From the NCBI GenBank assembly GCA_018715925.1, contig DVKQ01000092.1, forward strand, positions 1-41,509: a stretch of DNA of 41,509 nucleotides, written 5' to 3'. This stretch comes from Candidatus Onthousia faecipullorum (GTDB taxonomy: Bacteria > Bacillota_I > Bacilli_A > RF39 > UBA660). Position numbers and translations under genes: made by a program. Below, piece by piece: positions 31,372-41,250 of the stretch. The notes under the pieces are model-generated. The model was not told the DNA's origin, searched no databases, and saw nothing but the letters and a program-made list of their open reading frames with translations. The first letter of the stretch is position 1. Every line of letters begins with the position of its first letter.

Positions 31372-31759
31372 CTTCCTTATGCTTTTCCAAATAATTTTTT
31401 ATTTTGTAATAAGGACTTGTTCTATCATATTGAAGTTCTTTACCTATCTCATTCCAAGTCTTTAAATCTATAAATCTCATTCTTACAATAGTTTGAATTT
31501 CAACATCATCAATATTATCAATAAAGGTTTCTATTTCTAGCTCCTCATCATATAGTTTTTTTAATTTCTTTTCTAAATTATCTTTTAGTTTTATTTTAGT
31601 TTCTGCAATATTTTCAACAGGACTACTAACTTTATTAGTGTGAACATTGTTATCTTTAAAAGAAGAACTAGATATTTCAGAAATACTATTTATTCTTTCT
31701 TTTAATTGCTTAATCTGTTTTTTTATGAAAAATAATTTAGATAGTTTTTTTATCGTCAT
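31337..31759 (-). CDS. ArpU/RinA-like late transcription regulator
   Basis: 140 aa from the ATG at 31759 (GAGGATA nine bases upstream). A helical N-terminus (IKKLSKLFFIKKQIKQLKERINSI) resembles DUF1492-type starts, and the C-terminal part has a sigma region 4-like helix-turn-helix: VEIQTIVRMRFIDLKTWNEIGKELQYDRTSPYYKIKNYLEKH. Such proteins (ArpU, RinA, DUF1492) activate phage late genes. It is the best candidate to act at the duplicated element at 24512-24552 and 27305-27345; that link is inference. Confidence 0.7.
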   Translation of the reverse strand: MTIKKLSKLFFIKKQIKQLKERINSISEISSSSFKDNNVHTNKVSSPVENIAETKIKLKDNLEKKLKKLYDEELEIETFIDNIDDVEIQTIVRMRFIDLKTWNEIGKELQYDRTSPYYKIKNYLEKHKEDEEDNEDDEKL

Positions 31760-32576
31760 TGCTAGTATCCTCACTTTCATCTTCTAACCAGTCATAATCA
31801 TATATCTCTTTGTAATCATCATCAGTTGGCTCTTTATTTTTATATTTTGTTTCTTTAGATTCAATATCTTCTAAACTGCTAATACCTGCTTTTTCCCAAT
31901 TATTTAATATTCCACTAATATAAGCGAAAGTAAATTTATTATTTAAAATAGCAATATCAACAGCTTTCTTAATCATCGTTTCATCAAACACCGACAACCA
32001 CGACTTTATTTTCTCTTTCTCTAAAGGAACAATATCTCTTTTAAAGTTATCTTCTATATATTTAGTAATATTAGTTGTAGTAGTAGTTATTAAATTAATA
32101 TCTATATTCTTATTTCTTATTTCTTTATTCTTATTTCTTATTTCTGGTGGACACTTGTCCGCCTCTTGTCCGCTAGTTGTCTTTTCTTCATTTTTAAGCA
32201 TTCTTTGTTGTTGTTTCTTAAATGCACCAATAGACTTAGAACCTATCATATTTTGAATCTGACTTAAATAAATTTCACCATTTTCTAAAATCTCTACTAA
32301 TCCTATTTTTTGTAAAAGTTCCATAGCAACAACAACTGTATCGACATCTATTCTAGTTAACTCTGCTAACTTTGAAGCATCATAAGGAACTAGCATTTGT
32401 CCTACTTGTCTAATTAATATCCCATTCGTTTTTAAAGATTTCAAACATAATTTTAGGTAAAACAAAGAATATTCTTTACCATTAGGCTGTTCTTCAAGCC
32501 ATTGTATTGCATCATCATCAAAAAAATCTTCATTTAACATTAGCCAACTAAATTTAGTAGTATCATATTTTGACAT
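31737..32576 (-). CDS. Phage replisome organizer with DnaD-like C-terminus
   Basis: 279 aa. The N-terminal winged-helix domain (FSWLMLNEDFFDDDAIQWLEEQPNGKEYSLFYLKLCLKSLKTNGIL ... DVDTVVVAMELLQKIGLVEI) is the phage replisome-organizer fold. The C-terminal part (about 175-235, YIEDNFKRDIVPLEKEKIKSWL ... FTFAYISGILNNWEKAGI) is a DnaD domain. It should bind the phage origin and recruit host helicase. No helicase loader is encoded nearby, so host DnaI/DnaC may serve. A repeat inside the gene (32101-32150) may be the origin. Confidence 0.88.
   Translation of the reverse strand: MSKYDTTKFSWLMLNEDFFDDDAIQWLEEQPNGKEYSLFYLKLCLKSLKTNGILIRQVGQMLVPYDASKLAELTRIDVDTVVVAMELLQKIGLVEILENGEIYLSQIQNMIGSKSIGAFKKQQQRMLKNEEKTTSGQEADKCPPEIRNKNKEIRNKNIDINLITTTTTNITKYIEDNFKRDIVPLEKEKIKSWLSVFDETMIKKAVDIAILNNKFTFAYISGILNNWEKAGISSLEDIESKETKYKNKEPTDDDYKEIYDYDWLEDESEDTSNDDKKTI
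32101..32150. repeat. Direct repeats inside the replisome organizer gene
   Basis: Two copies of ATTCTTATTTCTTATTTCT separated by two bases, encoding IRNKNKEIRNKN on the minus strand. Phage origins often lie within the organizer gene and consist of short repeats, so this is a candidate origin. Confidence 0.5.
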
Positions 32577-33490: not shown

Positions 33491-33762
33491 TATTTTCCTC
33501 CTAACTTATTTTTCTCTATAAATGGTATATCTATTTTTCTTTCTAATCTGTTCATGGATTTGCCAAATTTAGTTAATTTTAACTTGTATTTTCTCCCTTT
33601 TTTTACTCTTCTGTAATATAAACGAAATACATTTAACATTAACTCTTTTTCTATAGCAGTTGGTATTGGTTTACATGCATTTGCAAATTCTAATGAGGGG
33701 CTTTTTAACCCTAGTACTGCTTCATTAAAAGATTCTTTATTATTTGAATAACATGAACTCAT
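33490..33762 (-). CDS. Unknown early phage protein with shared basic motif
   Basis: 90 aa. A central helix (PTAIEKELMLNVFRLYYRRVKKGRKYKLKLTKFGKS) carries the same basic motif as the downstream gene. Possibly DNA- or RNA-binding; not recognised. Confidence 0.6.
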   Translation of the reverse strand: MSSCYSNNKESFNEAVLGLKSPSLEFANACKPIPTAIEKELMLNVFRLYYRRVKKGRKYKLKLTKFGKSMNRLERKIDIPFIEKNKLGGK

Positions 33763-33765
33763 TTG

Positions 33766-34425
33766 CTATTTTCCTCCTATAAATGTAGCTTCTCTAGCCT
33801 TTTCTGCATCTTCTTTATTCCACATAACATATAACAAAGTTGTGCCTGGCTCGTCGTGATTATACATTTTCATTAAAGTTAAAACATTACCACCATTTAA
33901 GATATACATATATCCAAAGGTTTTTCTTAAGCTATGTAAACCAAATTTAAAATCTATACCACAAGCCTTAATAACTTTTGGAAATATAACTTCATTACAG
34001 TTCTGCCTAGTAATAGGATAGATAACATCTTTAGTTATACCTTTATATGTATCTTTCTTCTTCTGCCCCATAAAAAGATAATCATTTTCTTTTAAATCAT
34101 AAGTTTCTATGTATTTTAATATCTCTTCATGAAGCTTTTTATTCATTCTAAAATTTTGCATTTTTCCTGTTTTATTTTCTTTAATAGATATATAACCCTT
34201 TATAACATCTTTAACTCTTAATTGCAGTAAATCTTCTGCTCTAAAAGCTGTGTTAAATCCTATTAGAAACAACATATAATTTCTATAAGCCTGATATTTC
34301 TTAACATCACTTTTTGCATGATCTATTTGTTGTTTTAAAAAAGTCATAACTCTATCTAAAAGTTTTTTATCTCTAATAGGTAATGTCTCTTGTTGCCCAC
34401 CATAGCTTTTTATTCTTCTAGCCAT
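33766..34425 (-). CDS. Tyrosine recombinase, short form
   Basis: 219 aa. All catalytic residues are present: Arg62 (TAFRAEDLL), Lys85 (ENKTGK), His164 and Arg167 (HSLRKTF), His190 and nucleophile Tyr199 (TLLYV). The N-terminal core-binding domain is short (about 45 residues). As a serine integrase performs integration, this second recombinase may resolve multimers or act during replication. It lies in the early lytic operon, not beside an att site. Confidence 0.88.
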   Translation of the reverse strand: MARRIKSYGGQQETLPIRDKKLLDRVMTFLKQQIDHAKSDVKKYQAYRNYMLFLIGFNTAFRAEDLLQLRVKDVIKGYISIKENKTGKMQNFRMNKKLHEEILKYIETYDLKENDYLFMGQKKKDTYKGITKDVIYPITRQNCNEVIFPKVIKACGIDFKFGLHSLRKTFGYMYILNGGNVLTLMKMYNHDEPGTTLLYVMWNKEDAEKAREATFIGGK

Positions 34426-34580
34426 AACTTACCTACTTCGTTCAATTCACATTCGCCTATAACCCACAAAAGAGCCTGTTTTTCTGCATTTAACTTTCGT
34501 ATGGTATCTACATCTATAATCGTCTCTAATTGCTTATCTATGGCATTTATAACTGCAATAATCTCATCTTTAGTTTTCAA
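34410..34580 (-). CDS. Small helical phage protein
   Basis: 56 aa, start TTG at 34580 with AAAGGAG about ten bases upstream. KTKDEIIAVINAIDKQLETIIDVDTIRKLNAEKQALLWVIGECELNEVGKLWLEE, likely two helices. It overlaps the previous gene by 11 bases and the recombinase by 16 bases. Unknown. Confidence 0.55.
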   Translation of the reverse strand: MKTKDEIIAVINAIDKQLETIIDVDTIRKLNAEKQALLWVIGECELNEVGKLWLEE

Positions 34581-34986
34581 GTTCTTCTAACTCCTTTCTT
34601 TTTAAAATTAAATTAATCTTAAATATATCTTTAGCATTTCTATAAGGAATGCCTTTATAAGTATCTAAAACTCTTGCATATCCCTCTAACAGAAAGTCAG
34701 CAGGGCATAAATCCTCTATAACTATTCTTCCGTTAATAACACTATAAATAAGTTGTACTTCGCCATACACCTGTGAAAATATTAAGTCAGTTGGAATAGA
34801 TGCAATATACTTGCCAGTATCCCTAACTTTCAAATTTTTCAACAAGTGAAAACATACATATTTATAACTTTTCGGACAATAAAATTTTAGACTTCTATAC
34901 TTTTTAACAAAATCATTGTAATCAAGAAAAGTAACTAACTTGTCATCTTCTTCTAAATTAGAAAATGAAACAGATTTATTAGTCAT
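34570..34986 (-). CDS. Unknown early phage protein
   Basis: 138 aa. Globular; LVTFLDYNDFVKKYRSLKFYCPKSYKYVCFHLLKN and a beta-rich middle (KYIASIPTDLIFSQVYGEVQLIYSVINGRIVIEDL) then a helical end. No recognised motif. Confidence 0.6.
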   Translation of the reverse strand: MTNKSVSFSNLEEDDKLVTFLDYNDFVKKYRSLKFYCPKSYKYVCFHLLKNLKVRDTGKYIASIPTDLIFSQVYGEVQLIYSVINGRIVIEDLCPADFLLEGYARVLDTYKGIPYRNAKDIFKINLILKRKELEELEN

Positions 34987-35179
34987 TAATTAACATATAA
35001 TTCCTAACTTCATAATAAGAACAAATAGAACCTTTTTCTTGATCACACATTTTTGCATACTTTTCAAAATTATCAGAACTGTTATAAACTAATTTAGCAA
35101 TAACAAATACTGCAATAATTCCTAATAATATTAATAAAGCAACCTTTACCCAATTTCTTAAAACCATTCTTTTTTTCAT
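34979..35179 (-). CDS. Small phage membrane protein
   Basis: 66 aa. Basic start MKKRMVLRNW, one membrane helix (VKVALLILLGIIAVFVIAKLVY), and an outer part with two Cys. Its leader lies opposite the small RNA candidate at 35219-35273. Unknown role. Confidence 0.6.
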   Translation of the reverse strand: MKKRMVLRNWVKVALLILLGIIAVFVIAKLVYNSSDNFEKYAKMCDQEKGSICSYYEVRNYMLIND

Positions 35180-35183
35180 AATT

Positions 35184-35212
35184 TTTACAATTATGACACT
35201 TTGTGATAAAAT
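35184..35212 (+). promoter_or_regulatory. Promoter of a short RNA
   Basis: TTTACA (35184-35189), 17 bases, TGaTAAAAT with an extended -10 (hexamer 35207-35212). Nothing longer than eight codons follows before the terminator. Confidence 0.6.
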
Positions 35213-35218
35213 AAAGAT

Positions 35219-35273
35219 GTTAATTTATTTAACAGAAGATTAATGGCTGGGGAGCTTTAATCTTTCTTTTTTT
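35219..35273 (+). ncRNA. Candidate 55-nt small RNA in the lysis-lysogeny region
   Basis: From the expected start near 35219 to a clear terminator: AAGATTAA (35236-35243) and GCT pair with AGC and TTAATCTT (35257-35264) around a GGGG loop, followed by TCTTTTTTT. A 10-bp inverted repeat (ATGACACTTT 35193-35202, AAAGTGTCAT 35276-35285) encloses the unit. The RNA would be antisense to the leader of the minus-strand early operon. No protein is encoded beyond a 7-codon frame. Confidence 0.55.
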
Positions 35274-35304
35274 ATAAAGTGTCATATCTCCTTTCCTTTC
35301 TAAA

Positions 35305-35406
35305 TTAATAATAATTTTCTTGTATATGTTCTTTAATTAATTGTATTAATTCTTTTTGATGTTCTATTTGAGGTGGATTTATTACTTTTATTTTTAACTT
35401 ACTCAT
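35305..35406 (-). CDS. 33-residue early phage peptide
   Basis: SKLKIKVINPPQIEHQKELIQLIKEHIQENYY, with GGAGGGG seven bases before the ATG. The strong ribosome site and operon position support it. Unknown role. Confidence 0.5.
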   Translation of the reverse strand: MSKLKIKVINPPQIEHQKELIQLIKEHIQENYY

Positions 35407-35461
35407 TTAAGTCCCCTCCTATATTATTTTATTCATCATATTTTAGTTGGTAGCTTTAGTA

Positions 35462-35490
35462 TTGATTTTCTTTTTCCCCTCATTTACAAT
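35462..35490 (+). promoter_or_regulatory. Promoter of the lysogenic membrane protein
   Basis: TTGATT (35462-35467), 17 bases, TACAAT (35485-35490). The gene starts 29 bases further on with GAGGTG. Confidence 0.6.
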
Positions 35491-35518
35491 TAAACTAAAT
35501 GAAAGTGAGGTGAATAAT

Positions 35519-35881
35519 TTGAAAATTGATTTAACAATTACAATAACAGTTATATTAGCTCTATCTGCAATTATTTCTCCAATAATTGTTGCCATAATAA
35601 ACAATCGATTTCAGATAAAAATGAAGCAAATAGAGAACTATGATTTAGCAAAAAGAGATGCTTTAGCTAATTTTGCAGAAGCACTAGGTAAATATAAAGC
35701 TTCAGTAACTTTCAAAGATGAAGAAATATTCTTTAGTTCTTTGTATTCTCTCTTACTATACTTTGAAATTGACACTACATTTTTTACAAAGTTAGTCGAA
35801 TCAAAAGATGATACAGAAATACTATTTTTTGAAAGCAACAAATTGATTATTGAGCTGTCAAAACAAATAAAGTACAAGTGA
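35519..35881 (+). CDS. Lysogenically expressed membrane protein
   Basis: 120 aa from a TTG at 35519 with GAGGTG upstream. One membrane helix (ITVILALSAIISPIIVAII, about 7-26), then a soluble helical domain (QIENYDLAKRDALANFAEALGKYKASV, then SSLYSLLLYFEIDTTFFTKLVE). It has its own promoter and is the only plus-strand protein gene among minus-strand early genes. The layout suits a moron such as a superinfection-exclusion protein; this is inference. Confidence 0.65.
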   Translation: MKIDLTITITVILALSAIISPIIVAIINNRFQIKMKQIENYDLAKRDALANFAEALGKYKASVTFKDEEIFFSSLYSLLLYFEIDTTFFTKLVESKDDTEILFFESNKLIIELSKQIKYK

Positions 35882-36005
35882 TTAGTATAATTGATGAGTA
35901 AATTGTATATACCCACTTACCATCAATTATTTTTTTATGCCAATATAAATTAGCAATAAAATAAACTAAACATAAAATAAATACTAAAAATATTCTATAT
36001 AACAT
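35847..36005 (-). CDS. Small phage membrane protein
   Basis: 52 aa: LYRIFLVFILCLVYFIANLYWHKK, a polar loop, and a second hydrophobic stretch (SSIILITCTLFVLTA). AAGGAGAG lies just before the ATG, which abuts the upstream stop. Its end overlaps the convergent plus-strand gene by 35 bases. Unknown. Confidence 0.55.
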   Translation of the reverse strand: MLYRIFLVFILCLVYFIANLYWHKKIIDGKWVYTIYSSIILITCTLFVLTAQ

Positions 36006-36122
36006 TTACTCTCCTTTTTCATATTCAAGAATAAGTTTTAATAATTCAACTTTATCTTTACCATCAAGCATTTTTATCTTATCGGTTAAATCTTTAATCA
36101 ATACTTTTTTTAATTCTTGCAT
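36006..36122 (-). CDS. 38-residue helical phage peptide
   Basis: MQELKKVLIKDLTDKIKMLDGKDKVELLKLILEYEKGE, probably two helices. It lies between the cro-like gene and a membrane protein gene on the same strand, adjoining the latter directly. Weak ribosome site. Unknown. Confidence 0.45.
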   Translation of the reverse strand: MQELKKVLIKDLTDKIKMLDGKDKVELLKLILEYEKGE

Positions 36123-36134
36123 ATCTTTATCTTT

Positions 36135-36392
36135 TTATCTCCCTTCTTCAACTTCATAATCGCCACTTATATCGCTATTTTGTTGTGTCTGCATTACAAA
36201 ATCTTTAAAAAAAATATCACTTATATCACTGTCTAAAGCTAAAGCCAATTTTAACATAGTATCACTTTTCAAATATTTTAAATTACCTTGCTCTATTCTA
36301 ATAATAGTAGCTCTTGAAACTTTAGCAATTTCAGCCAATTCAAGTTGTGAATATCCTTTTTCTAATCTTTTTTCTTTTAAACAATTATTCAT
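36135..36392 (-). CDS. Cro-like XRE repressor
   Basis: 85 aa. Helix-turn-helix in residues 5-60: LKEKRLEKGYSQLELAEIAKVSRATIIRIEQGN. First gene of the leftward lytic transcript, divergent from the CI-like gene, so it takes the Cro position. Its promoter (36413-36441) is near consensus and must be strongly repressed in the lysogen. Confidence 0.85.
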   Translation of the reverse strand: MNNCLKEKRLEKGYSQLELAEIAKVSRATIIRIEQGNLKYLKSDTMLKLALALDSDISDIFFKDFVMQTQQNSDISGDYEVEEGR

Positions 36393-36412
36393 AGTTCCTC
36401 CTTTCTATGTTA

Positions 36413-36441
36413 ATCATACATTACAGCATTGTTGGTGTCAA
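36413..36441 (-). promoter_or_regulatory. Early lytic promoter
   Basis: TTGACA (36441-36436), 17 bases, TATGAT (36418-36413), followed by AAAGGAGG and the cro-like ATG. ACAATG/AACAACAT-type words lie around it and near 36491-36505 and may be operators. Confidence 0.75.
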
Positions 36442-36512
36442 GCATAAACAACATTTTTTCTTGATTTTTTTATTGAAATGATGTAAACTATACAATACAA
36501 TGTTATTAGGAG

Positions 36513-36896
36513 GTGTTAAGTATAAAAAACAATTTAGGCTCTTATATTAGAAAATATAGAGGTAATCAGTCTTTGAGAGAATTTGCAAAAAAATGTGGTA
36601 TAAGTCATACACATCTTGATAGCATTGAAAAAGGTATAGATCCACGAAGTGGAAAAAGTGTCCGTGTAACGATAGATACTTTAGAAAAAATCGCAAAAGC
36701 AATGAACATGACTATTAATGATTTATTAATCAATTCTGGCGAAGTATCTAATGAAAGTATAAATGCAGTTAATAAAAACAAATGTATACATAATTACGAT
36801 CTTGACGATGATGATTTAAAAATTTTAGAACTATTAAAGGAAATGGACAGTGAAAAAAAGAAAACAATAATTAATTTTATAAAAACTTTTAGATAA
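36513..36896 (+). CDS. CI-like XRE repressor
   Basis: 127 aa from GTG 36513. Helix-turn-helix in residues about 10-70: GSYIRKYRGNQSLREFAKKCGISHTHLDSIEKG and VTIDTLEKIAKAMNMTINDLL. The C-terminal part is short and acidic, with no peptidase motif, so induction is not by self-cleavage. The ribosome site AGGAGG (36508-36513) overlaps the GTG; the best-spaced codon is ATA at 36522, which also aligns with the usual start (I-KNNLG). Likely lysogeny repressor, head of the plus-strand operon to the integrase. Confidence 0.82.
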   Translation: MLSIKNNLGSYIRKYRGNQSLREFAKKCGISHTHLDSIEKGIDPRSGKSVRVTIDTLEKIAKAMNMTINDLLINSGEVSNESINAVNKNKCIHNYDLDDDDLKILELLKEMDSEKKKTIINFIKTFR

Positions 36897-36906
36897 GAGG
36901 TGAATA

Positions 36907-37119
36907 ATGAGAACAAGAGTTAGAACCATCAATAAAGTAAGAAATGGAACTTATGTTACAACTAGTTGGAAAGTAAGTGATTATTTAGTATCAAATATTT
37001 TATACTTAATATTCATATATATACCATATTTAATAATTAAATACCTATTTTACATTCCAATAAAATGGTGTGTCAACAAACTAATTTCTCTTATTAAAAA
37101 TAAAGACAATAACAAGTGA
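36907..37119 (+). CDS. Small basic membrane protein next to the repressor
   Basis: 70 aa, AGAGGTG six bases upstream. TRVRTINKVRNGTYVTTSWKVSDYL, then one or two hydrophobic segments (LVSNILYLIFIYIPYLIIKYLFYIPI) and a basic end. Small proteins of this kind recur beside repressors in Firmicute mobile elements. Unknown role. Confidence 0.65.
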   Translation: MRTRVRTINKVRNGTYVTTSWKVSDYLVSNILYLIFIYIPYLIIKYLFYIPIKWCVNKLISLIKNKDNNK

Positions 37120-37482: not shown

Positions 37483-37917
37483 ATGAATATAATAGAAACT
37501 GAAATATGGAAAGATATAAAAGGTTACGAAAACTACTATCAAGTTAGTAATTATGGGAGGATAAAATCAAAGGCACGTATAAGAAAAGGTAAGCAAAAGC
37601 AATTTTATTTAACTAAAGAAAAGATATTATGTGCTCACGTTAATAAAAAGAGAGGATATGTACAAATATTATTAACAAAAGAAGGCAAGCAAAAGTTATA
37701 CTTATGCCACAGATTAGTGGCAGAAACTTTTATTCCTAATCCAAATAATTATTCTGAAATTAATCATATAGACGGAAATAAGCAAAATAATTATGTAAAA
37801 AATTTAGAATGGTGTACTCATAGTGAAAATATTAAGCATGCATATAATAAAAGTTTAATTCCAGAAACAAAGAATAGACCAAAAGGTCTAAAATATAAAA
37901 AGGAAGTGTTACAATGA
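37483..37917 (+). CDS. NUMOD4-HNH endonuclease
   Basis: 144 aa. An N-terminal NUMOD4 DNA-recognition motif (EIWKDIKGYENYYQVSNYGRIKS, 7-29) is followed by an HNH nuclease: LCHRLVAETFIPNP, INHIDGNKQNNYVKNLEWCTHSENIKHA. This is the plan of free-standing homing endonucleases. Its stop overlaps the integrase start by ATGA, so they are translated together, which is unusual. Confidence 0.88.
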   Translation: MNIIETEIWKDIKGYENYYQVSNYGRIKSKARIRKGKQKQFYLTKEKILCAHVNKKRGYVQILLTKEGKQKLYLCHRLVAETFIPNPNNYSEINHIDGNKQNNYVKNLEWCTHSENIKHAYNKSLIPETKNRPKGLKYKKEVLQ

Positions 37918-39356
37918 AAATAGGTGCTGTTTACAGAAGAGTGTCAACTGATGAACAAGCTCGTGATGGTTACTCTCTATCTGCACAATTAAAAGCAATT
38001 AAAAAGTATGCATCAGAGCATGATATTTTTATAGATCCTCAATACATTTTTACTGACGAAGGTATATCTGGTAGAAAAGCTAAAACAAGACCTGCATTTA
38101 TGGAAATGATAAAACAAGCTAAAGCAAAAAAGTTTGATGTAATTTTAGTTCATAAATTTGATAGATTTTCTAGGAATAGAGAAGATTCTGTAGTATATAA
38201 ATCATTATTAAAAAAAGAATATGGTATAAATGTTATCTCAATATCAGAACCATTAGATCCTGATGATAAGATTAGTGTTATTTTGGAAGCATTTTTTGAA
38301 GCATTCGCAGAATATTATTCTTTAAACTTATCTAGTGAAGTAAAGAAAGGTCAACTTGAAAAGCATTCGGAAGGTGAATTGCAAACTAACCCTTCTTTTG
38401 GATATAATGTAGAAGATAATAAACTTGTTATTAATAGTGAAGAAGCAGAAATTGTTAAACTAATATTTGAACAATATGCCATAGATAATCTACCTATGAT
38501 GGAAATTGCTAGAAATATTAACAAATTAGGGATTAAAACTAAAAGAGGAAATAAATTTGAAAATAGAACTATATATTATATACTCAATAATCCAGTTTAC
38601 ATTGGAAAATTAAGATATACTCCAGGAAGAAGAAAAGATACTTATGATTTTGATGATCCTAATACAATTATCACAAATGGAAAACATACTCCTATTATTT
38701 CAAGCGAACTATGGGATATGACACAAATAAAACTAACAAAAAATAATAAGTGGAAAAAACCTAAACAACATATTGATAATAACCCTAAACATTGGACTAA
38801 AGGCTTAATAAGATGTAAGGAATGCGGTTGCACTATGGTAACCTGCAATAAGACAAAATTACGTTGTAATGGATATAATAAGGGTAAATGTTCCAACTCC
38901 TCTACTCTTTCTATTGAAGAAGTATACCAATTAATAATAAATACTATAAAAGATACCATCAATAATGGAACAATTGACCATATAGTACCAAATAAAAAAG
39001 AAAGGAAAGAAACTGATAAATATTCTATTATTAAACATCAATTAGAACAACTTAAAGACAAAGAAAAAAGAATAAAGGAAGCTTATCGTGATGGAATAGA
39101 TACTCTTGAAGAATATAAAGAAAATAAAGATATTTTAACAAAAGAAAAAGAAAGATTAACAAAGGAACTTAATAATACTGAAAAACCTAAAGCAGAAACA
39201 AGAAAAAAAGAAATTATAGAAAATGGGAAAAAAGTTTATGAGATACTAAATAATGAAAATATATCTATAAAAGAAAAAAATGAAATAGTTCATATATTAA
39301 TTAATAAAATAGAATTTGACTCTAACACTAATACTTTAGAGGTATATTACAATTAG
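37914..39356 (+). CDS. int: Large serine recombinase (phage integrase)
   Basis: 480 aa. Catalytic domain 1-150 with RRVST (Ser11), FTDEGISGRKAKTRPAF and HKFDRFSRN; recombinase domain about 155-290 (NPSFGYNVEDNKLVI, NNPVYIGKLRY); zinc ribbon C301/C304/C318/C326; then a long coiled coil (about 370-430) that controls directionality. It ends 107 bases before attR, the normal place for the integrase of such phages. It should catalyse attP x attB, and excision with a directionality factor. Confidence 0.95.
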   Translation: MKIGAVYRRVSTDEQARDGYSLSAQLKAIKKYASEHDIFIDPQYIFTDEGISGRKAKTRPAFMEMIKQAKAKKFDVILVHKFDRFSRNREDSVVYKSLLKKEYGINVISISEPLDPDDKISVILEAFFEAFAEYYSLNLSSEVKKGQLEKHSEGELQTNPSFGYNVEDNKLVINSEEAEIVKLIFEQYAIDNLPMMEIARNINKLGIKTKRGNKFENRTIYYILNNPVYIGKLRYTPGRRKDTYDFDDPNTIITNGKHTPIISSELWDMTQIKLTKNNKWKKPKQHIDNNPKHWTKGLIRCKECGCTMVTCNKTKLRCNGYNKGKCSNSSTLSIEEVYQLIINTIKDTINNGTIDHIVPNKKERKETDKYSIIKHQLEQLKDKEKRIKEAYRDGIDTLEEYKENKDILTKEKERLTKELNNTEKPKAETRKKEIIENGKKVYEILNNENISIKEKNEIVHILINKIEFDSNTNTLEVYYN

Positions 39357-39474: not shown

Positions 39475-39944
39475 GTAATGGTGAACTTGCCGCTGCCCTT
39501 AGATACCTTAATCAAAGATATACTATGCCTGATCAAAAAGGACAAGCATTGTTAACGGATATAGGAACAGAAGAACTTGCTCATGTTGAAATGATTTCTA
39601 CTATGGTATATCAACTATTAAAAGATGCTACTGTAGAAGAAATGAAAGAAGCAGGACTTGCATCTAACTATGCGGAACATAGAAACGCCTTATATCCAGT
39701 TGATTCTAATGGCGTACCATTTACCGTTGCTTATTTTGCAACTACAGGAGATCCACTAGCAGATATAATGGAAGATATGGCAGCAGAACAAAAAGCAAGA
39801 GCAGTATATGAAAACTTAATTGACTTAACAGATGATCCTGATGTTATCGGACCTCTTTTATGGCTTAGACAAAGAGAAATAGTTCATTATAATGCTTTTG
39901 AAGATTTATTCAACTACTATGATAAAATGTTAAAGAACAAATAA
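39474..39944 (+). pseudogene. cotJC: cotJC, 3' part (split by prophage)
   Basis: 156 codons, beginning SNGELAAALRYLNQRYTMP in the frame left by codon 31 of the 5' part. Manganese-catalase motifs are complete here: Glu in NGELAAAL, GTEELAHVEM (ExxH), DMAAEQKARAVYENL and REIVHYNAFEDL (ExxH). With the 5' part it makes 187 residues, the normal CotJC length. In the integrated state no ribosome site serves this part; the first in-frame ATG is at 39525 and would lose the first ligand. Confidence 0.93.
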
Positions 39945-40101: not shown

Positions 40102-41250
40102 CTATACTATACTAACTAAATTATAGTGTAACTTTAATCCTTCAAATAAGATATTTAAACTTGCATTTATATCTCTATCATGATGTGATCCACATTCTGG
40201 ACAATCATACTCTCTAATACTTAAATCTTTTAATTTACTATTCTTATATCCGCAATGACTACATATTTGACTACTTGGATAATAAGTATTTATCTTATAA
40301 TAAATCTTACCTTTTATTTTACATTTCCACTCCATTAAAGAAAGAAATGTACTAACACATGCATCTGATAGACTTTTATTAAATGCTTTTTTCTTATCTT
40401 TAAACATATCTTTTACTAATAGATCTTCTGTTACTATAATATCATGGTCATTCACTATCTCATTAGCTATATTGTTTAAATAATGTTTTCTATAATTTTT
40501 AATTTTAGCATGTAATCTTGCTATTTTCTCTTTTGTCTTCAAATAGTTTTTACTACCTTTAACTTGTCTTGATAACTTTCTTTGTAATTTTTTTAATCTC
40601 TTTTCAAACTTCATTATTACTTTCGGATTACTATATTTAATACCATCACTTGTTACTACTAAATCTTTTATACCTAAGTCTATTCCTACTATACTAGTAG
40701 GTGTTACTTTCTCTATTAAGATATCTTCTACAACTACTACACTTACATAGCATTTACCTGTAGATTCTTTTGTTATAGTAGCATTTAATATCTTTCCTTC
40801 TATTTTATCTTTATTTCTATATCCTCTTATTTTTACTTTTCCTAGTTTTGGTAATTTTATAAATCTATTCAATAAATCTACTTCTATATTACTATATTCT
40901 TTTCCTTTATAACTACTTCTTACACAACTAGTTCTATAAGAGTGTTTACTAAATTTACTTTTAAATTTAGGATAACCTTTTCTTTTAGCATGATAATCAT
41001 TAAATGCTTTACATAAATCATCTACAGCAGAACATAATACACTTGAATCTACTTCTTTTAAAAATTCATTTTCTACTTTTAATTTAGGTAAATCTTTATG
41101 TAAATCAAATCTATTTATACTATTATTATCTTTTAAATAATTAAGATAATAATTATATACAAATCTTTTACATCCTAAAGTTTTGTTGATTGATATTCTT
41201 TGTTCATCAGTTGGATATAATCTAAATTTATATGCTTTATATATCTCCAT
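40102..41250 (-). CDS. tnpB: TnpB RNA-guided nuclease (IS200/IS605-type)
   Basis: 382 aa. N-terminal helix-turn-helix start KAYKFRLYPTDEQ, wedge/REC part, then RuvC: Asp191 (GIDLGIKDLVV), Glu275 (TEDLLVKDM), Asp360 (HDRDINASLNI), with zinc finger Cys330/333/350/353. All catalytic residues are intact. No tnpA is present, so it is a lone element. AGAGGTG lies eight bases before the ATG. It lies just 3' of cotJC and outside the prophage. Confidence 0.93.
   Translation of the reverse strand: MEIYKAYKFRLYPTDEQRISINKTLGCKRFVYNYYLNYLKDNNSINRFDLHKDLPKLKVENEFLKEVDSSVLCSAVDDLCKAFNDYHAKRKGYPKFKSKFSKHSYRTSCVRSSYKGKEYSNIEVDLLNRFIKLPKLGKVKIRGYRNKDKIEGKILNATITKESTGKCYVSVVVVEDILIEKVTPTSIVGIDLGIKDLVVTSDGIKYSNPKVIMKFEKRLKKLQRKLSRQVKGSKNYLKTKEKIARLHAKIKNYRKHYLNNIANEIVNDHDIIVTEDLLVKDMFKDKKKAFNKSLSDACVSTFLSLMEWKCKIKGKIYYKINTYYPSSQICSHCGYKNSKLKDLSIREYDCPECGSHHDRDINASLNILFEGLKLHYNLVSIV

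Follow-up and report, generated by a model that had tools for sequence, protein, structure and literature searches.

The stretch of DNA analysed here, referred to as the window throughout, comprises 41,509 nucleotides from the gut bacterium Candidatus Onthousia faecipullorum. Inside a prophage of this bacterium lies a compact unit, 35184-35273(+), which runs from a promoter to the T tract of a terminator and faces a leftward early operon. The features on which the analysis relies are as follows.

35184-35212, + strand: antisense RNA promoter, with the −35 TTTACA at 35184-35189, a 17-nt spacer and the extended −10 TGA-TAAAAT at 35204-35212
35219-35273, + strand: predicted 55-nt antisense RNA, based on folds, covariation (11 distinct rows) and a wobble-strand test
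35229-35285, − strand: ORF1, a small ORF of 18 codons (MTLYKKRKIKAPQPLIFC) opposite the RNA, whose 3′ end lies at +13 of ORF1
35287-35293, − strand: Shine-Dalgarno sequence of ORF1, AAGGAGA
34979-35179, − strand: membrane-protein gene (66 aa, one span, without Shine-Dalgarno sequence), next after ORF1
35305-35406, − strand: 33-aa ORF, preceding ORF1 in the leftward operon
31737-32576, − strand: replisome organiser/DnaD-like gene (Pfam Phage_rep_org_N and DnaB_2; PHROG 186 and 5968)
35193-35202, no strand assigned: left arm of an inverted repeat, ATGACACTTT, inside the promoter spacer and, on the mRNA, upstream of the membrane-protein start codon
35276-35285, no strand assigned: right arm of the inverted repeat, AAAGTGTCAT, coinciding with the − strand start of ORF1

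The promoter proposed by an earlier, sequence-only reading of this DNA (TTTACA-N17-TGaTAAAAT) was found at 35184-35212; its extended −10 reads TGATAAAAT, with TAAAAT at 35207-35212 and TGA ahead of it. The GGGG-loop terminator and the 55-nt RNA of that reading were recovered as well, the length assuming an RNA start 7 nt after the −10. The predicted transcript would open with a 5′ hairpin at 35219-35233 (GUUAA-UUUAU-UUAAC), followed by one unpaired base and by the terminator hairpin at 35235-35265 with its GGGG loop, and would end in the T tract that extends to 35273. In the predicted fold, the RNA is almost without single-stranded sequence. The extended −10 character of the promoter makes expression in the lysogen plausible. 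Inspection of the promoter spacer by eye revealed nothing convincing as a repressor operator.

We compared the unit with chance expectation. Promoter-like matches as such are not in excess in this AT-rich DNA (17 in 33500-37000 versus 24.4 in shuffles), and a terminator scan of the same region listed none; we think that the terminator was missed because its stem holds a bulge. The combination of the two elements is unusual. A composite unit, defined as an extended −10 promoter of at least 10/12 and, within 110 nt, a terminator at least as stable as −8 kcal/mol, occurs a single time in the 41.5-kb window, both strands counted, and twice in 60 dinucleotide shuffles (0.033 per shuffle). In addition, the 97-nt region folds with −29.2 kcal/mol, versus −13.5 ± 2.7 kcal/mol in shuffles. 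The RNA family is apparently uncatalogued: Rfam 15 gave four matches up to E = 5 in 33500-37000 of the window, all far below the gathering score, and none up to E = 1 in six distant loci, and we found no report of it in the open-access literature.

The leftward operon leads from a Cro-like gene (36135-36392) through ORFs of 38 and 52 aa and the 33-aa ORF to ORF1 and the membrane-protein gene; the replisome organiser gene lies 2.4 kb downstream of the latter, with several genes between. Its best promoter match is at 36441-36413, which places the unit ~1.1 kb downstream, inside the operon. The unit had been described as lying opposite the operon's leader. It is indeed antisense to the operon, but what it faces is an internal small ORF. 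Likewise, the statement that the unit leaves almost no room for a gene holds for the + strand and fails for the other, which carries the 18 codons of ORF1. The RNA is complementary to ORF1 from codon 5 through past its stop, and the target transcript on the opposite strand is complementary to it over its full length. ORF1 would be translated, judging from its start, Shine-Dalgarno sequence and position; its length, start and stop and the GGAGA of the Shine-Dalgarno sequence are kept in the same-genus copies. Its peptide and frame are not clearly conserved and selection on the peptide is not clear, and its first codons are lysine-rich because the T tract of the RNA terminator lies there.

The membrane-protein gene is without a Shine-Dalgarno sequence in 4/4 unit-bearing same-genus loci; where the unit is absent, an SD-like stretch directly precedes most of its homologues, as judged by eye. 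Starts without a Shine-Dalgarno sequence are no rarity in this DNA: 9 of 43 hand-picked window genes, this gene included, have a match of 3 nt or less. Several membrane-protein relatives without the unit (L068-L071, L077, L081, L082) have another short leader in common, roughly AGTCGGTCAAGACTAAGAAGGGATTTGAT, a small hairpin before the Shine-Dalgarno sequence that is kept despite differing upstream genes. Read-through or translational bypass from ORF1 into the membrane protein was considered and rejected: the two are in the same frame in Candidatus Onthousia faecavium and in genome G187, but not in the window. We also rejected a role of the unit as leader or attenuator of the + strand gene at 35519-35881, which is divergent within the leftward early region. 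At the matching place, O. faecavium (L064) has another + strand gene behind an upstream region that resembles the window's, which is reminiscent of a cargo slot; in G187, no + strand gene was seen at this place.

Four same-genus copies of the unit were obtained in total (the window, G387, G187 and G395), from a DNA search of 291 family genomes and a search of 35 genus genomes with a covariance model, R1; the position of the G387 copy agrees with Candidatus Onthousia faecavium DVIS01000026.1. R1 applied to 288 order genomes gave no copy beyond these four. Between the window and G187, the promoter and RNA are identical at 82/90 positions (8 differ), versus 144/193 in the membrane-protein gene (49 differ; Fisher p = 0.0013 against the unit) and 43/110 in the other flank (67 differ; Fisher p = 4e-15). 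The promoter keeps 27 of its 29 positions in each pairwise comparison with the same-genus copies. Differences within the RNA fall in the hairpin loops and at the top of the terminator stem, the terminator loop being GGGG in the window versus GACU in the sister copies.

Additionally, we examined the structure at the level of individual base pairs. The alignment used (A11; 12 loci, 11 distinct rows) was fitted to the model and is biased to the structure; in it, 13/18 pairs are changed on both sides (38 cells), with 0/500 shuffles as high and at most 8 two-sided pairs when the partner was slid by 1-3 columns. Both stems covary. The wobble cells of the two inner stems comprise 24 G-U on the + strand and 0 on the − strand, among loci found with + strand models and to that extent biased to the + strand. 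Since a G-U on one strand is an A-C on the other and all wobbles are on the + strand, it is the rightward RNA that appears to be under selection. In 13/13 units compared, the fold of the complement is weaker, with a narrow margin in the faecal phage clone described below.

The exact 10-bp arms of the inverted repeat had been taken to enclose the unit, which proved incorrect: the left arm lies between the −35 and the −10, the right arm is the start of ORF1, and the repeat is only partly conserved. All 10 bp are present in the window only; the O. faecavium copy keeps 8 bp, and the G187 and G395 copies keep 7 pairs, including one G-U of the mRNA strand. A MITE-like mobile element was rejected as the source of the repeat, given that the arms are not conserved and the window's genome holds elsewhere only weak, short or partial matches (best other E = 0.005).

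On the mRNA, the repeat can fold so that it masks the AUG of ORF1. Conceivably, then, there is no antisense RNA at all, and a structured leader of the leftward mRNA, with the ORF1 start codon in a stem, regulates translation in cis. The AUG can pair in the mRNA fold in 4/4 same-genus loci; in the outer stem, both partners of one pair have changed, and two G-U changes lie on the mRNA strand. However, covariation of this outer stem is not significant (167/500 shuffles), all wobble cells of the inner stems are on the opposite strand, the complement fold is the weaker one in every unit compared, and the −35, spacer length, extended −10 and T tract are kept. We regard regulation by the mRNA leader without an antisense RNA as quite improbable.

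More distant relatives were found with successive covariance models on family and order genome sets that overlap. R1 on 386 family genomes revealed one more locus, L084 in another genus, whose terminator stem differs and still pairs. R2, built from five loci (the four same-genus copies and L084), gave 17 places at E ≤ 0.05 in 385 order genomes, of which 12 were accepted (3 of them same-genus), 4 were rejected and one, G503, stands outside this tally. Twelve loci went into R3, which matched 25 places in 221 family genomes (E ≤ 0.01): 7 known, 9 new and accepted, 3 rejected, and L122-L127 outside the tally. Acceptance was by eye on promoter, hairpins and context, and E-values are rough owing to short calibration. 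None of the nine new loci had contributed to a model, and together they make up all the new places at E ≤ 1.1e-4; all nine fall in one of two gene contexts, about which the models carry no information. By eye, L093, L094, L095/L129, L097, L121 and L130 were rejected as units, being host promoter-leaders, coding sequence or unlike the unit.

We also searched collections outside these genomes. Three membrane-protein queries and three DNA patterns gave no relative in viral contigs, the membrane protein found nothing in phage and plasmid collections, and the window DNA found nothing in the phage collection. Fourteen replication-gene regions from phage records, taken from 85 listed rows, contained one comparable antisense unit, in MT837225.1 (L102), a human faecal phage clone; such a unit is not a general feature of these replication genes (1/14). 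In L102, a TTGACA-17-TAAAAT promoter and a terminator lie on the antisense strand ahead of the replication gene at 1201, and R2 gave no match there. Across the 14 regions, R2 gave no match at E ≤ 0.01 and one weak match (E = 0.011) in L109.

The first gene context is that of prophages, with 10 loci: the window, L064, L065 and L066, and six from other genera (L084, L086, L090, L091, L115 and L120). The ten include near-identical same-genus copies, the unit sequence of L066 being that of L065. In all ten, the predicted RNA covers the beginning of a small ORF in antisense orientation, its 3′ end lying at +13 to +19 of that ORF. The Shine-Dalgarno sequence of the small ORF is clear in most of these loci and weak in L120. 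L090 offers two possible starts in different frames (26 or 35 codons), and its +15 register was computed for the first; the 35-codon ORF starts 8 nt further in and is the one that meets the replication gene, the RNA then ending only ~7 nt into it. The small ORF abuts or overlaps a replication-initiation or helicase-loader gene in five of the ten loci, where PHROG matches of the gene that it meets include DnaD-like helicase loader or replication initiation protein:

L086: small ORF ends 2 nt before the replication gene
L090: 1-nt overlap
L091: small ORF ends directly before the replication gene
L115: 34-nt overlap
L120: 4-nt overlap

In L084, the small ORF overlaps a 103-aa gene without assigned function, and a DUF6291 gene comes next. 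In G187, ORF1 is separated by the membrane-protein gene from a DUF6291/DnaB_2 gene and a DnaB helicase gene, and replication genes follow at once in 3/4 same-genus loci.

The second context comprises 13 conjugative-type loci (L087, L088, L089, L092, L096, L112-L114, L116-L119 and L128), in which the unit lies after ssb and before a type IV secretion system pilin-like gene, some with an HTH gene between. Pfam scans covered SSB and HTH in L087 and T4SS_pilin in L092, and the other loci were assigned by visible similarity. Seven of the 13 were measured (L087, L088, L089, L092, L096 and L119, with L128 by eye only); these show a weak −35, an extended −10 in or beside the first hairpin and a predicted RNA of ~34-37 nt. 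By eye, a longer outer stem, AAAGCAAAGAA/TTCTTTGCTTT, would bracket the unit on the mRNA strand of L087.

The earlier claim that the unit encodes an independent RNA with its own terminator, antisense to the leftward early operon, is well supported by the comparison of relatives. Sequence comparison speaks for the unit, its structure, its strand and its position, and from these we infer a transcript, its pairing, a translational coupling and a physiological role. We consider it likely, on balance, that the replication operon of the phage is repressed by a cis-antisense RNA by way of a translated leader ORF, in the manner of plasmid copy-control RNAs, P22 sar and lambda OOP. An RNA of ~55 nt, initiated at its own promoter and stopped by its own terminator, would act in cis: all of it would pair with the leftward early mRNA, in a duplex that spans ORF1 as far as its base 13. 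The footprint of an initiating ribosome should cover base 13. The pairing would block or abort translation of ORF1, possibly with cleavage of the duplex, and less translation of ORF1 would mean less translation of the dependent downstream genes. In related phages, these dependent genes would be the replication-initiation or helicase-loader genes, whose starts overlap or abut the ORF1 stop as in translational coupling; for the window and the three loci nearest to it, coupling would be to the SD-less membrane-protein gene, behind which the replication genes lie. Leaky transcripts of the replication operon would likely be silenced in the lysogen, and a threshold set at induction. That the RNA could dampen early gene expression, as the earlier reading had suggested, appears to be its most likely function, with the target narrowed to the small ORF before the replication genes.

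The two contexts also bear on other explanations. Transcription itself could matter, through convergent interference with the leftward polymerase or through a promoter or short RNA that helps to start DNA replication. The unit lies at the head of replication modules, and lambda OOP, once thought a primer, has a promoter that still matters for replication according to PMC12197685. Yet an interference promoter needs neither a covarying 5′ hairpin nor a fixed register to a start codon, and the second context, between ssb and the secretion pilin gene, is not a phage origin as far as seen. We judge an effect of transcription as such to be unlikely.

Type I toxin-antitoxin systems of C. difficile prophages are reportedly the subject of one study. 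In hok/mok/sok, sok is the antisense RNA over mok. The unit could follow this layout, with the membrane protein as toxin, ORF1 as the mok-like ORF and the RNA as antitoxin: a small, one-span, SD-less membrane protein lies behind a leader ORF that bears an antisense RNA, and translation of hok is described as coupled to the upstream ORF mok (PMC11228461), a dependence like that proposed here for ORF1. In contrast to hok/mok/sok, the unit is not tied to the membrane protein. Other genes follow ORF1 in the six other-genus phage loci, with no single toxin family among them; the model matched 0/23 other loci searched for membrane-protein relatives; and the nearness of replication genes in most same-genus loci also argues against it. 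Sequence comparison gave no evidence of a toxin, and we give this layout little probability.

A small RNA acting in trans, on host or other phage targets, would account for the loop UUUGCUGGCUGGC, which several secretion-type loci have in common with two phage loci. In the window, however, the loop is not that of its sisters, the RNA offers almost no single-stranded sequence, and its position is constant relative to the cis target. Action in trans, which the earlier reading had named as an option, seems very unlikely to us.

Antisense control of replication genes is textbook knowledge for plasmids, and a few enterobacterial phages have known antisense RNAs. Further comparisons are suggested by the P1 P53as antisense promoter and the P4 CI RNA. 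In the CopA/CopT system, tap is the coupled leader ORF of repA, and CopA is longer than the 55-nt RNA. A predicted antisense RNA over a small ORF that adjoins a replication gene, the CopA/tap/repA geometry, is present in L086, L090, L091, L115 and L120, and the window has the membrane-protein gene between. For CopA/CopT of R1-type plasmids, inhibition of translation by a cis-encoded antisense RNA is described as working through translational coupling (PMC5415839). The system serves plasmid copy control; in the unit of the window, the terminator sequence lies inside the leader ORF. The nearest in size and place is RNAII of the streptococcal plasmid pMV158, which, as described in PMC4485353, is 48 nt long, ends in an intrinsic terminator, and inhibits initiator translation from the copG-repB intergenic region, running against the replication operon just upstream of atypical initiator translation signals. 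RNAII differs in its single-stranded 17-nt A-U rich 5′ tail, where the RNA of the unit has a 5′ hairpin, and in that source's account it overlaps no leader ORF; it also belongs to a plasmid and not to a phage.

Among phage systems, P22 sar is described as a small antisense RNA of the immunity I operon that limits the antirepressor ant (PMC2629481, PMC5415839), in contrast to the replication genes proposed as target here. Lambda OOP, a self-contained promoter-RNA-terminator unit of 77 nt, is transcribed against the early operon where this borders on the replication genes (PMC5869508, PMC5415839); it works through RNase III on cII mRNA, at the 3′ end, and these accounts describe no small leader ORF whose start the RNA would cover. 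Here, a single RNA architecture is found repeatedly ahead of phage replication modules in more than one genus of an uncultured gut Bacilli family, and elements of another kind carry it beside ssb and secretion genes. If the proposed repression is true, these phages would add an RNA brake to the protein repressor, and one sequence would serve both as antisense terminator and, on the other strand, as the lysine-rich beginning of a leader ORF. Exact target sites follow from the model, and the covariance model could join the RNA catalogues.

The two contexts allow a more speculative thought, that an RNA family common to temperate phages and conjugative-type elements forms a shared brake on mobile DNA, with RNA-level incompatibility between unrelated element types in one host. 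Because several members of both kinds share the loop UUUGCUGGCUGGC and their targets carry its complement, the RNA of one resident element could silence a matching incoming operon; we hold this to be doubtful.

The prophage of the window also combines a tyrosine recombinase gene in the early operon (33766-34425, − strand) with a large serine recombinase gene (37914-39356, + strand), a pairing present in G187 as well. Near the window end lie a manganese-catalase-like gene (39525-39944, + strand) and an IS605 OrfB/Cas12f1-like transposase gene (40102-41250, − strand).
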